Source: Gemmatimonadales bacterium (lineage in GTDB: Bacteria; Krumholzibacteriota; Krumholzibacteriia; LZORAL124-64-63). Taken from it: a stretch of DNA of 64,000 nt. The stretch is taken from positions 1-64,000 of the forward strand of contig JAHOYV010000017.1 of NCBI GenBank assembly GCA_019038745.1. Direction: 5' to 3'. A program made the position numbers and the translations under genes. Shown here piece by piece: positions 59,583 to 64,000 of the stretch (position 1 is its first letter; every line of letters starts with the position of its first letter). The notes under the pieces were generated by a model. That model worked only from the letters and a program-made list of their open reading frames with translations, searched no databases and was not told the DNA's origin.

Positions 59583-60014
59583 TCACCCCATCCCAACCCT
59601 GAATTCATGTTCGACGGGAACGGGGCGGGTCTTTAGTGCGGAATAGGCAGTTTCTTCATTGGACTGATGGGAACAGGATCCCTCTATCCGATCTCCGGCC
59701 GCTCGCAAACGCAGCAGGAGATCCCGCAAGGCCACTTTCCCGGGATCTGGGTCATTATCGGGTCCAATTGCAGGAGTTGAAACGCTATATCCAGTATTGG
59801 TTACCATGATTTCCGGGTGTTTTTGACTATTTGGTTTTCTGGTAACACCTAAATTCAGACTGGGAATTCGAAAGAGTCGGTTCCGCATCCTACGTCTCAG
59901 AAATATGAATATGGCTGTAATGAGGAGTGCCCCACCCACCCCCACTGAAGCCGTAGCAGCCCAAAACACGGGTCCCTGATTAATGAAGAAAGCCAGACTG
60001 TTTCCCGGATTCAC
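59583..60014 (-). CDS. Uncharacterised single-pass membrane protein
   Basis: 143 residues, family not recognised. The N-terminus MNPGNSLAFFINQGPVFWAA leads into one transmembrane helix (about 17-39, ending in LITAIFIFLRRRMRNR), so a short N-terminus outside and a ~100-residue cytoplasmic part are likely. The cytoplasmic part is low in hydrophobic residues except for a possible helix VALRDLLLRLRAAGDRIEGS. Initiation is at GTG 60014 with GGGGAGA 5 nt upstream. It lies between the 117-residue gene and the HDOD pair, 20 bp after the former, so a motility-related role is possible by position only. FliO-like proteins share this topology, but no FliO motif is seen. Confidence 0.65.
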   Translation of the reverse strand: MNPGNSLAFFINQGPVFWAATASVGVGGALLITAIFIFLRRRMRNRLFRIPSLNLGVTRKPNSQKHPEIMVTNTGYSVSTPAIGPDNDPDPGKVALRDLLLRLRAAGDRIEGSCSHQSNEETAYSALKTRPVPVEHEFRVGMG

Positions 60015-60034: not shown

Positions 60035-60388
60035 TTATACTCTCAGATCGATCAGGGCCCCCAGCTTTTCCTGTTCCTCCTTGGACAGTTCCGGCTGCTC
60101 GGTGGTTTCTGATCCTGCATTTTCCTTCTGCAGGCGATCGATCCTTTTTTGATTCCTTTTCCTTTTACGTTGTTGTCGGCGATCCTTGCGGTCCTCGTCC
60201 GCCTTGATTTTCTGCTGTTCCGCCTCTTGGGTTTCCTTTACACGTTGAACCTTGAGTTCGTCGTTCTTTTCCAGCTGTTCGGCAAAGGGAGCACCTTGTT
60301 GAGCCGGCTGCTGAACCTTGGCCTGCGTCTTTGCCACGCTTCCCATTTGGGCAATTGTGGTCGGTAACGAGACTCCGTCTCCAGCCAT
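60035..60388 (-). CDS. Uncharacterised charged coiled-coil protein in the flagellar cluster
   Basis: 117 residues of very polar sequence. After MAGDGVSLPTTIAQMGSVAK come Gln/Glu/Lys-rich segments (LKVQRVKETQEAEQQKIKAD, then DRKDRRQQRKRKRNQKRIDR) likely to form a long helix, and a conserved-looking end (ELSKEEQEKLGALIDLRV). ATG 60388 has AAGGAG 5 nt upstream, so it is a real gene despite its biased composition. It lies 23 bp downstream of the sigma-28 gene. Small charged proteins of this kind are found after fliA in several flagellar clusters, without known function. An anti-sigma role (FlgM) was considered, but no FlgM-like helices are apparent. Confidence 0.7.
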   Translation of the reverse strand: MAGDGVSLPTTIAQMGSVAKTQAKVQQPAQQGAPFAEQLEKNDELKVQRVKETQEAEQQKIKADEDRKDRRQQRKRKRNQKRIDRLQKENAGSETTEQPELSKEEQEKLGALIDLRV

Positions 60389-60411: not shown

Positions 60412-61389
60412 TCAAGCAGTATATCCAGGCCAAACTCCGCCACTTGTGCCCAACCAGGTCAGGTAGGCCGTCAGTTGGCAAAGAGTCAAGCAGGCCATGA
60501 CATTGACCGGTTCCAATTTCTTCACTTTTTCTCCCAAAGAAACCGGTTCCTCGCTGGGTTCCTGAGGGGCGCTCTGACGCAACTTGATTTCCTGCGTGAG
60601 CTGGCCGAGACTCTGTTTTCCTTCGTGTCTCTGAATTTTTCCCTTGAGTCGGAAAATGGCCTTGGTGTGAATCTGGCAAACCCGGCTCTCGGTAACGTCC
60701 AGGATTTCCCCGATCTCCTTGAGTGTCAGTTCTTCATAGTAGTACAAGACCAAAACAAGCTGCTCCTTGTCAGGCAGCTCAATCATTCTTTCCCCGATGA
60801 GTTCCTTCATTTCCTGCCGGGCCAGGACCTGTTCCACGTCTTCGGTTTTGGGGTCGGCCAGGTAATCGCCAAGGGTGGAAGACTGTTCGCTTTCGTCGCC
60901 GGAAGTATCGGCGTCCAGGGACATGATCGTAGCGATGGAAACCTCGCCGACCATGGTGTCCAACACCGCTATGTCAATGTTCAACTCACGAGCGATTTCC
61001 GCATCAGTGGCCGGGCGCCCCAGTTTGACTTCCAGGGTGCTGTAAGCCTCTTCCAGCTGTTTGGCCTTCCGCCTCAAGGACCGGGGAAACCAATCCTGGC
61101 TTCGCAGTTCATCAAGGATCGAACCTCGAATGCGGGGAATGGCGTAGGTTTCGAACTTAATTCCGCGTAGGTGGTCGAAGTTGTCTATGGCCTGGATCAA
61201 CCCCAATAAACCGGCTGATACCAGATCGTTGAATTCCACGTAATGGGGAAGTCCGATTGCCATTCGCCCGGCCACGTACTTGACAATGCGGGCATAGATA
61301 TTGACCAGTTCCCGCCGCCCTTCCTGGCGTTCATCCCCATGGCAGCGTTCCCAAACGTCATGATGTAGGATCTGGACCGTTTCAGTCAT
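60412..61389 (-). CDS. fliA: Sigma-28 family RNA polymerase sigma factor (FliA/WhiG) with extended C-terminus
   Basis: Directs transcription of late flagellar genes. Region 2 is clear (VNIYARIVKYVAGRMAIGLP, DLVSAGLLGLIQAIDNFD, KFETYAIPRIRGSILDELRS), then WFPRSLRRKAKQLEEAY of region 3 and region 4 (LPDKEQLVLVLYYYEELTLKEIGEIL, ESRVCQIHTKAIFRLK). The domain order and FETYA/IRGSILDELR motifs are those of FliA/WhiG. Uniquely, about 70 residues follow region 4: a Glu/Pro linker and then a strongly hydrophobic end (VNVMACLTLCQLTAYLTWLG). AAGGTTGG lies just before the ATG. It sits after flhA-flhF and a small membrane protein, with no flhG between. Confidence 0.92.
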   Translation of the reverse strand: MTETVQILHHDVWERCHGDERQEGRRELVNIYARIVKYVAGRMAIGLPHYVEFNDLVSAGLLGLIQAIDNFDHLRGIKFETYAIPRIRGSILDELRSQDWFPRSLRRKAKQLEEAYSTLEVKLGRPATDAEIARELNIDIAVLDTMVGEVSIATIMSLDADTSGDESEQSSTLGDYLADPKTEDVEQVLARQEMKELIGERMIELPDKEQLVLVLYYYEELTLKEIGEILDVTESRVCQIHTKAIFRLKGKIQRHEGKQSLGQLTQEIKLRQSAPQEPSEEPVSLGEKVKKLEPVNVMACLTLCQLTAYLTWLGTSGGVWPGYTA

Positions 61390-61485
61390 TTTCCAACCTT
61401 TCTAGAGAAATCGTCGTGACCACAAAATGCAGGTTCCATGCCAAGGAACTATTGTCCAATACCGCACCGATCCAGTTCCGGTTCG

Positions 61486-61698
61486 TCATTCCGTCTCACT
61501 CTCTCCGATTTCATCCTTGCTCTCGAAATGTGGTACGAGTCGAACGGCCAGTGTCATAATTGATCCCAGGATGAAGAAGCCCAAGTATGAGATGATCATC
61601 TTCTTGAGAGTTGGCAGAAGACCCCAATCCTGCCAGAGGGCTGCTATCAGGGTCACCAGCGCCGCGGCAAGAGCCAGGTTGTGAATCAGCTGATACAT
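61486..61698 (-). CDS. Small two-helix membrane protein between flhF and fliA
   Basis: 70 residues with two predicted transmembrane helices (about 5-23, IHNLALAAALVTLIAALW, and about 36-55, ISYLGFFILGSIMTLAVRL) joined by a short loop DWGLLPTLKK, and an acidic tail FESKDEIGESETE. GGGAG lies 5 nt before the ATG, so translation is credible. It is 15 bp downstream of flhF, the position usually held by flhG (also called ylxH or fleN). It has no sequence relation to that ATPase. The family is not recognised. Co-transcription with flhA-flhF and a role in flagellar placement are suggested by position only. Confidence 0.7.
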   Translation of the reverse strand: MYQLIHNLALAAALVTLIAALWQDWGLLPTLKKMIISYLGFFILGSIMTLAVRLVPHFESKDEIGESETE

Positions 61699-61713
61699 CG
61701 ACTCTCCCTCTTT

Positions 61714-62934
61714 CTAATCGGCTATTTCCATTCCGGCGATCCGGTCGGGTACAAATTCCGTCTCCAGCCGGGCCGAACCTGCGATCAGTATTCTGTCCAG
61801 AAGCTCTCCTGATGCTGCGATGTTCAGCAACTCTTCAATCCCCCGGTTCTCACTGCGCAGGGAATAGGGCAGCGGGATGCTCTCGGCCAGGTCCAGAATC
61901 TTTCCCTGCAAGCGGGTTCTGTCCATCCTGCTCAGGGCAATCCAATCGCAGTTCCAGGCCCGCGCGGCTCCGTTTAGCTCCTCAAGGTCCTGGAAATCAC
62001 GATCCAAGGGAACAACGAGGTGGCGATGGAAACTGTGGTTTTTGCTGAGCCAGGAATGAATCGTATCCCCAAGAGCCAGTGAAGGATGGTCCAGCGCCGG
62101 CAAGTCCAACAAAACGGCCTCGTATTTTCCCAAGTGTTTTTCACTCTTGGCCAATTGACTGTCCTTGCGGATGATTCCCGCGTCGAAGCCCAATTTGGCC
62201 GCAGCATTTTGGAGGCGACGGATTTCCCCTGCGTGTCCCGGGTGAAGACTCAGTACCAGGGTTTTGCGACCCTGTTTTTTCAATTCTGCTGCCGCTCCCA
62301 GGACCATTCTGGTTCGGCCGGATCCAGCGTCACCCAGGAAGGCGTGGCAGCCGAAGAATCCGTCCCACCCACAATTGCTTGCTTTAAGATTTTCATTCAA
62401 CCAGGCCAGAGCTGCTGGGCGTTCTTCCATCATTCTCCCGGTCTCCCCGGCAAACCGGGTGAGCAGGTTTCGAACAGCCGCTTTGCCGGCCCCTGCGGTC
62501 AGGAGAGTCTGGGCCAGGGGATTGCCTTCAAGTTCATCATGCTTTACGTCACGGTTTTTACTTTCAGATGCCTCAATAACCAGTTTCTCGATTCGTTCAA
62601 CTTCCAATTCTATCTCCCGCAGAATTTCCGGGGACGTAGCACTGGCGTCGGGTTCGGCGACCGCTGGTGTCGTAGGCGCATATCCCAGTGGAGCCACAGC
62701 GGACCCGGGACCCACGCGAACCGATTTGTCACCGGGAGGTTGGACGGTCACTTCAACCAGGTGTTCTTGTCCCAGCCCGGTTTCCTGCCGACGGGTAATT
62801 TTCCGGCTGCCCAGGATGATTACGTCTCTCCCGTAGCGATTTTCAACCTGCCGGTATGCTTCCTTGAGCGTAGGCCCGTAGAAAACATTTTCCTGACCGC
62901 TAACCGACTGCTTGCTGTCCTTGCTGGGAGACAC
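61714..62934 (-). CDS. flhF: FlhF-like flagellar SRP-family protein with degenerate GTPase motifs
   Basis: 406 residues. The N-terminal motif TLKEAYRQVENRYGRDVIILGSRKI and the position after flhA identify FlhF, which normally uses GTP-dependent dimerisation to mark the flagellar pole. The NG domain is altered: the P-loop is GDAGSGRTR (201-209), with R207 for the invariant lysine; the DTAGR motif is replaced by DLPALDHP (277-284); and the TKxDE specificity motif reads SRMDRT (335-340). The C-terminal frame GKILDLAESIPLPYSLR still matches SRP GTPases, so this is a diverged FlhF and not an unrelated protein. GTP hydrolysis is unlikely. The start is GTG 62934, overlapping flhA by 35 bp. Confidence 0.85.
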   Translation of the reverse strand: MSPSKDSKQSVSGQENVFYGPTLKEAYRQVENRYGRDVIILGSRKITRRQETGLGQEHLVEVTVQPPGDKSVRVGPGSAVAPLGYAPTTPAVAEPDASATSPEILREIELEVERIEKLVIEASESKNRDVKHDELEGNPLAQTLLTAGAGKAAVRNLLTRFAGETGRMMEERPAALAWLNENLKASNCGWDGFFGCHAFLGDAGSGRTRMVLGAAAELKKQGRKTLVLSLHPGHAGEIRRLQNAAAKLGFDAGIIRKDSQLAKSEKHLGKYEAVLLDLPALDHPSLALGDTIHSWLSKNHSFHRHLVVPLDRDFQDLEELNGAARAWNCDWIALSRMDRTRLQGKILDLAESIPLPYSLRSENRGIEELLNIAASGELLDRILIAGSARLETEFVPDRIAGMEIAD

Positions 62935-64000
62935 TGGTCACCACCGTTCCGACCGATTGGACACTGGCCGAGGATGCTACCTCGGTGTAACCCATGACGG
63001 CCAAGTTGGGATAAGTAGGCTCAATGAGCCTCTTGACGAAGATTCGAATCGGAGAAGGAACCAAGAGGACGGGTGGGGTTCCCTGCCCGTATGCACTCCT
63101 GAGCACGGTCTCCAACCGTCCCAGGAAGGTCTGTGTGAAATCCGGGGCAAGTACAACTCCCCCGGCCTGGTCGGATTCCCGAGTGGCCTGCATAAGAATC
63201 TGTTCCGCTTCGGGGTGCAGACTGACTACGTGGAGTTTTCCCTCCGCCTCGGTGTACAGGGCGGTGATCGTTCGACCCAACGCTTCGCGAACCTTGCCCA
63301 GGAGGAAGTCCGTCCCCATTCCACTGCTGGAAAAATTGGCCAGGGTCTCCAAAACCGTGACGATATCCTTAACTGGAACCCTTTCGTGCAACAGAGCCCG
63401 CAACACGTTGTGCAGAGTGTTTACCGGAACTTTGTCCGGAACCAAATCCTCAACCAGCGAAGGTGCGAATTCCCTGATTGATTCGCACATATCCTTTACA
63501 TCCTGACGACTGAGCAGTTCGTCGGCATGGGCCCGGATCAGCTCCGACAAATGGGTTGTAAGGACGGCGGCGGGCTCTACCACTGTGTAGCCCTCTTGCT
63601 CGGCCTGGGCTTTCTGGCTTTGGTCGATCCAAAGAGCCGGGAGGTTGAAAGCCGGTTCGGTGGTCTGCAGCCCCGTAAGTTGACCTGGATTTTGGTTCGT
63701 ACTCATTGCCAGCAGTTTGTTGGGCAGGAGCTCCGATCGAGCGATGCTCACTCCCTTGAGTTTGATCTGATATTCCTGGGCGCCCAGTTGCAGATTATCA
63801 CGGACCCTGATGGGATGAATAAAGATCCCCAATTCGCTACCTACCTGGCGCCGGATGTTGCTGATCCGATGCAGGAGATCTCCACCACGGGAATCGTCCA
63901 CCAGTGGAATCAACCCGTAGCCGATCTCCAATTCCAATTTGTCCAGCACGAACAGGTCCTCACTGCGGATCCCTTCCGGTTCTTCCTCAACCTCAGCTTC
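62900..64000 (-). CDS. flhA: Flagellar export apparatus protein FlhA (C-terminal part; 5' end beyond window)
   Basis: Core of the flagellar type III export gate. Only the last 367 residues, the cytoplasmic FlhA-C domain, are in the window; the frame is open to the right edge. It shows LELEIGYGLIPLVD, RISNIRRQVGSELGIFIHPIRVRDN (the FlhA/SctV signature region), ETVVEPAAVLTTHLSE-like TVVEPAAVLTTHLSELI, LVEDLVPDKVPVNTLHNVLRALL, VPVKDIVTVLETLA and the end PNLAVMGYTEVASSASVQSVG. A flagellar FlhA rather than a virulence SctV is indicated by flhF and fliA downstream. An acidic linker (EAEVEEEPEG) lies at the very edge. Confidence 0.95.
   Translation of the reverse strand, partial: EAEVEEEPEGIRSEDLFVLDKLELEIGYGLIPLVDDSRGGDLLHRISNIRRQVGSELGIFIHPIRVRDNLQLGAQEYQIKLKGVSIARSELLPNKLLAMSTNQNPGQLTGLQTTEPAFNLPALWIDQSQKAQAEQEGYTVVEPAAVLTTHLSELIRAHADELLSRQDVKDMCESIREFAPSLVEDLVPDKVPVNTLHNVLRALLHERVPVKDIVTVLETLANFSSSGMGTDFLLGKVREALGRTITALYTEAEGKLHVVSLHPEAEQILMQATRESDQAGGVVLAPDFTQTFLGRLETVLRSAYGQGTPPVLLVPSPIRIFVKRLIEPTYPNLAVMGYTEVASSASVQSVGTVVTSVSQQGQQAVG

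Follow-up and report, generated by a model that had tools for sequence, protein, structure and literature searches.

The window, i.e., the whole 64,000-nucleotide stretch of DNA analysed here, belongs to a 91% complete genome of Candidatus Krumholzibacteriota. On its minus strand, the flagellar genes follow the order flhA, flhF, a 70-codon open reading frame (ORF) and fliA (Table 1). Between the stop codon of flhF at 61714 and the start of fliA at 61389, both on the minus strand, this ATG-initiated ORF is the only plausible gene. Its start codon lies about 15 nt past the flhF stop, with the purine-rich AGAAAGAGGGAGAG just upstream, and so short a gap leaves no space there for flhG. FlhG (FleN/YlxH), a MinD-type ATPase to which the 70-residue protein bears no relation, would be encoded at this place in the operon; a 2025 review describes flhF and flhG as consistently encoded together (PMC12826062). 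An earlier, sequence-only reading of this DNA claimed that only a small membrane-protein gene separates flhF from fliA and that flhG is missing from its place, in agreement with both the coordinates and the length of the gap.

Table 1. Flagellar genes and the flhF junction in the window
Feature	Position	Strand	Remark
flhA, C-terminal part	62900..64000	-	gene runs on to contig position about 65015
flhF homologue, B-N-G SRP-GTPase fold, degenerate G1-G5	61714..62934	-	probable pseudo-GTPase
flhF / flgV-like junction, place expected for flhG	61699..61713	.	about 15 nt
FlgV-like two-transmembrane protein, 70 aa, without the conserved C-terminal FlgV peptide	61486..61698	-	
fliA (sigma-28), 325 aa, family-specific C-terminal extension	60412..61389	-	

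Degenerate FlhF and the absence of FlhG

By profile and predicted fold, the flhF product of the window is a true homologue of FlhF, the SRP-type GTPase, with which it shares the B-N-G layout, the SRP-GTPase fold and the place behind flhA. Indeed, the first PDB matches of its family alignment profile are the FlhF structures 8r9r and 2px0, its AlphaFold model displays a confident B-N-G layout (pLDDT 85.5), and a Foldseek search with this model recovers SRP GTPases and FlhF. The score against TIGR03499 is 56 bits, below the cut-off of 174 bits. Unlike canonical FlhF, the protein lacks the G2 (DTYRxxA-EQL), G3 (DTAGR), G4 (TKxDE) and G5 (TGQxVPxD) motifs: its G1 reads GDAGSGRT, with the Walker A lysine replaced by arginine, SRMD stands in place of TKxDE, and DTYR, DTAGR and TGQxVPxD are all missing. 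Thus, judging from its motifs, the window FlhF is a probable pseudo-GTPase. G2, G3 and G5 are lost in all Krumholzibacteriota FlhFs that we aligned. Most members of family f1 have lost the Walker A lysine, although the more divergent ones still carry it, as do f3 and parts of f4 and f5; the FlhFs of f3 additionally keep TKLD. Given that some Krumholzibacteriota FlhFs retain GKT or GKS, GTP binding might still be possible in these members. The survival of the Walker A lysine and of TKLD in some families indicates that the decay of FlhF is graded, whereas the absence of FlhG is the wider feature.

To search for FlhG, we built a profile from three DQAxxLR-carrying proteins of other phyla, each encoded downstream of a canonical flhF, the first of which has FlhG/FleN as its best PDB matches. 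The sample comprised 80 Krumholzibacteriota genomes, nearly all of them MAGs, the phylum set and the class set being the same. In 79 of the 80, the profile yielded only partial matches of at most 74 bits, i.e., at the level of ParA/Soj. The best match in the window genome scores 57.5 bits, and the MinD-like FlhG with a DQAxxLR helix that the sequence-only reading proposed to seek in the rest of the genome is not there: the ParA/MinD-type proteins of this genome are Mrp, Soj beside ParB, other ParAs, a CooC-like pair and a BY-kinase, none of which carries the helix. The exception is G077, with an FlhG-like match of 209 bits (L170 / L228, G077:C112) that shows a weak DnaJ-like match at its N-terminus. 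We set this ATPase aside and regard it as probably a contaminant, since its contig looks foreign (GC 57.7% vs 63.1%, weaker tetranucleotide agreement, motA/motB-like genes and a second FliM) and the listed contamination of the genome is 7%. Thus, as far as sampled, FlhG is absent throughout the phylum.

A highly diverged FlhG might have been overlooked elsewhere in these genomes, given that ParA-type ATPases occur in all of them and that MAGs are incomplete. We consider this highly improbable because the same profile detects FlhGs at 150-487 bits in another phylum (that of G080, see below), because DQAxxLR is missing from the ParA-type proteins of the window genome, and because the N-terminal motif of FliM, which can be bound by FlhG or CheY, is eroded too.

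The sequence-only reading further suggested that both halves of the FlhF-FlhG switch may have been lost together. This stands insofar as FlhG is missing and the FlhF GTPase motifs are degenerate across the phylum, but the link is not strict. In four loci of another phylum (L210, L216, L217 and L218), an FlhF with decayed G2 and G3 is encoded directly upstream of an intact FlhG, which rules out that FlhF decay requires the loss of FlhG. At the sequence level, the two events are separable.

A small two-helix protein that follows flagella

The small ORF is kept at the same site, with 18-69% identity, in relatives whose contigs span the locus, and is therefore not a chance ORF; it lies between flhF and fliA both in relatives from the same family and in other Krumholzibacteriota families. 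Profile searches of the 80 genomes detected FlhA in 51 and the small protein in 48, with both present in 47, FlhA only in 4, the small protein only in 1 and neither in 28. The small gene is thus found in 47 of the 51 flhA-bearing genomes but in 1 of the 29 without flhA, contradicting the possibility, raised by the sequence-only reading, that it is unconserved. In the 4 genomes with FlhA only (G008, G016, G018 and G031), the FlhA or FlhF hits are partial, as contig ends would produce, and G034 is the single genome with the small protein but no FlhA. Thus, across the phylum, the small gene follows flagella. In the loci of families f3 and f7, it stays behind flhF, with fliA outside the stretch retrieved, which suggests that it is more closely tied to the flhF side.

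Searches of Pfam, NCBIfam and PDB profiles with the small protein gave no match above cut-off. In the structure model (pLDDT 71), hydrophobic helices are predicted for residues 3-22 and 28-59 of the window protein, and the two-helix pattern is conserved across 31 aligned sequences. Position 33, near the start of the second modelled helix, is basic (R in 22 and K in 8 of the 31 sequences; K in the window protein). An acidic residue of helix 2 is missing: the window protein has K32, with E in only 4 of the 31, all members of f4 or f5. Position 53, toward the C-terminal end of helix 2, carries R or K in 21 of the 31 sequences. The polar tail varies in length, with a mean of 31 residues including about 5 K/R and 5 D/E.

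The proximity to flhF brings to mind FipA of Vibrio, likewise a small membrane protein, which recruits FlhF and whose gene neighbours the flhF operon (PMC11620751). By analogy, the hairpin might serve as a membrane anchor for the pseudo-GTPase FlhF, operating without nucleotide control; its closest genomic link is flhF, and an FlhF that lacks a GTP switch would need some other means of being held. However, FipA consists of one helix and a DUF2802 domain, and we found neither sequence similarity between FipA and the 70-residue protein nor a DUF2802 match in the latter, so that FipA was rejected as its identity. Furthermore, homologues of the hairpin (see below) are encoded beside sigma-28 and also alongside normal FlhF. 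An anchoring role, which would be compatible with an added FlgV role, therefore seems unlikely.

Homologues alongside FlhG and the resemblance to FlgV

For comparison, we turned to the 82 genomes of the phylum to which G080 (titled 'uncultured Deferribacteres bacterium') belongs; the FlhG profile identified FlhG in 20 of them. Of these 20 FlhG loci, 11 carry a small ORF that matches the Krumholzibacteriota profile and immediately follows flhG, ahead of fliA. An alignment of nine of these ORFs, compared with the Krumholzibacteriota family, gave a profile-profile E-value of 1.5e-13 (probability 98%, 65 columns). A joint profile searched against 200 sampled Bacillota genomes produced 9 matches, all 9 immediately upstream of fliA; the profile-profile comparison of the Krumholzibacteriota family with these nine proteins gave an E-value of 1.1e-9 (96%), and the nine real sequences rank above all 180 block-shuffled and 9 reversed controls. 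Two-helix proteins labelled Hydrogenedentota (L132 and L135), although similar in appearance to homologues, were left out of the homology claim because their direct profile comparison was not significant.

In most of the Bacillota homologues, the C-terminus is formed by a peptide of the type ADIIRRMGW or GAELVRKM. Zamba-Campero et al. 2024 (PMC11607428) describe type-1 FlgV (BB0268) as a protein with two helices, a basic residue in helix 2 and a polar tail that terminates in a conserved peptide; in spirochaetes, Bacillota and other phyla, its gene lies where the flhF-flhG module meets the sigma-28 module. The Krumholzibacteriota protein shares with FlgV, as so described, two transmembrane helices, a conserved basic residue early in helix 2, a polar residue toward the C-terminal end of this helix, a polar tail of variable length, a gene at the flhF(-flhG)/sigma-28 junction and an occurrence tied to flagella. 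Two features of this description are missing from the window protein, namely, the acidic residue of helix 2 and the conserved hydrophobic/basic peptide at the C-terminus; the peptide is found in none of the 31 aligned sequences vs 8 of the 9 Bacillota homologues. The operon differs as well, flhG being gone, so that the window gene lies directly behind flhF and before fliA. Given that the architecture and position agree and that the family matches the Bacillota proteins, but the C-terminal peptide and the helix-2 acidic residue are absent, we call the protein only FlgV-like: on sequence grounds, it represents a shortened variant rather than a full type-1 FlgV, linked to FlgV through the tail-bearing Bacillota proteins and the published description. 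Any part of FlgV function that depends on the tail is not transferable to the window protein.

The suggestion of the sequence-only reading that the 70-residue protein may have replaced FlhG is not supported by this comparison. Such a membrane hairpin would bind and regulate FlhF and limit flagellar number; indeed, its gene adjoins flhF, accompanies the absence of FlhG in flagellated Krumholzibacteriota (the 47 genomes above) and remains in the f3 and f7 loci without fliA nearby. However, the homologues share an operon with FlhG in another phylum, between flhG and fliA, the same position, with canonical FlhF in several loci, and stand beside fliA in Bacillota. Moreover, the hairpin is far smaller than FlhG and possesses neither an ATPase domain nor a DQAxxLR helix, and the Borrelia FlgV is a protein of a basal-body ring (PMC11607428). 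Functional replacement of FlhG is thus very unlikely. Rather, coexistence of the homologue with FlhG and, in several loci, with canonical FlhF implies that the small gene was already present before flhG was lost and is no substitute for it.

Proposed loss of flhG from a flagellar operon and its neighbourhood

We propose, with a probability of roughly 0.8 for the explanation as a whole, that the small gene is a FlgV-like leftover of the loss of flhG and that FlhF persists as a static scaffold. The ancestral operon would have been flhA-flhF-flhG-flgV-fliA, from which flhG was lost in the Krumholzibacteriota lineage, leaving flgV directly behind flhF. Separately, FlhF would have lost the residues required for GTP cycling; its most likely role is that of a static scaffold at the nascent MS/C-ring. 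If FlhF no longer cycles GTP, a GTPase activator such as FlhG might have become unnecessary. In Borrelia, FlgV forms a ring seen by cryo-ET where the MS-ring meets the C-ring, and deletion of flgV results in fewer, shorter filaments (PMC11607428). By analogy, the 70-residue hairpin is most likely a component of the flagellar basal body that tunes the export or assembly of filaments; we found no experimental work on any Krumholzibacteriota flagellum in the literature, so that this function rests on the analogy. A more elaborate arrangement, which we regard as doubtful, would have the shortened FlgV-like hairpin tether a nucleotide-independent FlhF scaffold to the basal body, so that, with FlhG gone, flagella would be placed without a GTPase/ATPase switch.

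The unusual feature is that a whole phylum keeps flagella and a broken-looking FlhF, yet has lost FlhG. A flagellated phylum in which FlhF is retained, its GTPase motifs are gone and FlhG is absent offers a natural test case for learning which functions of FlhF depend on GTP cycling. Our analysis also extends FlgV-like proteins to Krumholzibacteriota, a phylum not named in the passages of PMC11607428 that we consulted, and indicates that the two-helix part of these proteins can persist without the tail peptide.

The N-terminal region of FliM is the contact for FlhG in some species and is also the CheY site. Most of the phylum shows an eroded EIDALL-like motif in this region (L043:12113-13159, L241-L269), with relics in f3 (EIEALL) and in two f1 members (DIESLL and EIESML). 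This erosion follows a pattern similar to that of FlhF decay, a resemblance that is suggestive only. Three loci with records titled Latescibacterota, Gemmatimonas sp. and Fibrobacter sp. (L114, L115 and L116, respectively) are flagellar loci of the Krumholzibacteriota type, and their titles are probably mislabelled.

FliA comprises 325 aa in the family of the window vs about 270-290 aa in other families. The extension of roughly 60-70 residues (window 60412-60650, minus strand) has a conserved hydrophobic end, LEPVNVMACLTLCQL..WL..G..WPG; the sigma-28 of this family is possibly membrane-associated. Two unannotated genes follow fliA on the minus strand, one for a charged protein of 117 aa (window 60035-60388), where another phylum encodes proteins of about 105 aa, and the other for a protein of 143 aa with a single N-terminal hydrophobic segment (window 59583-60014).
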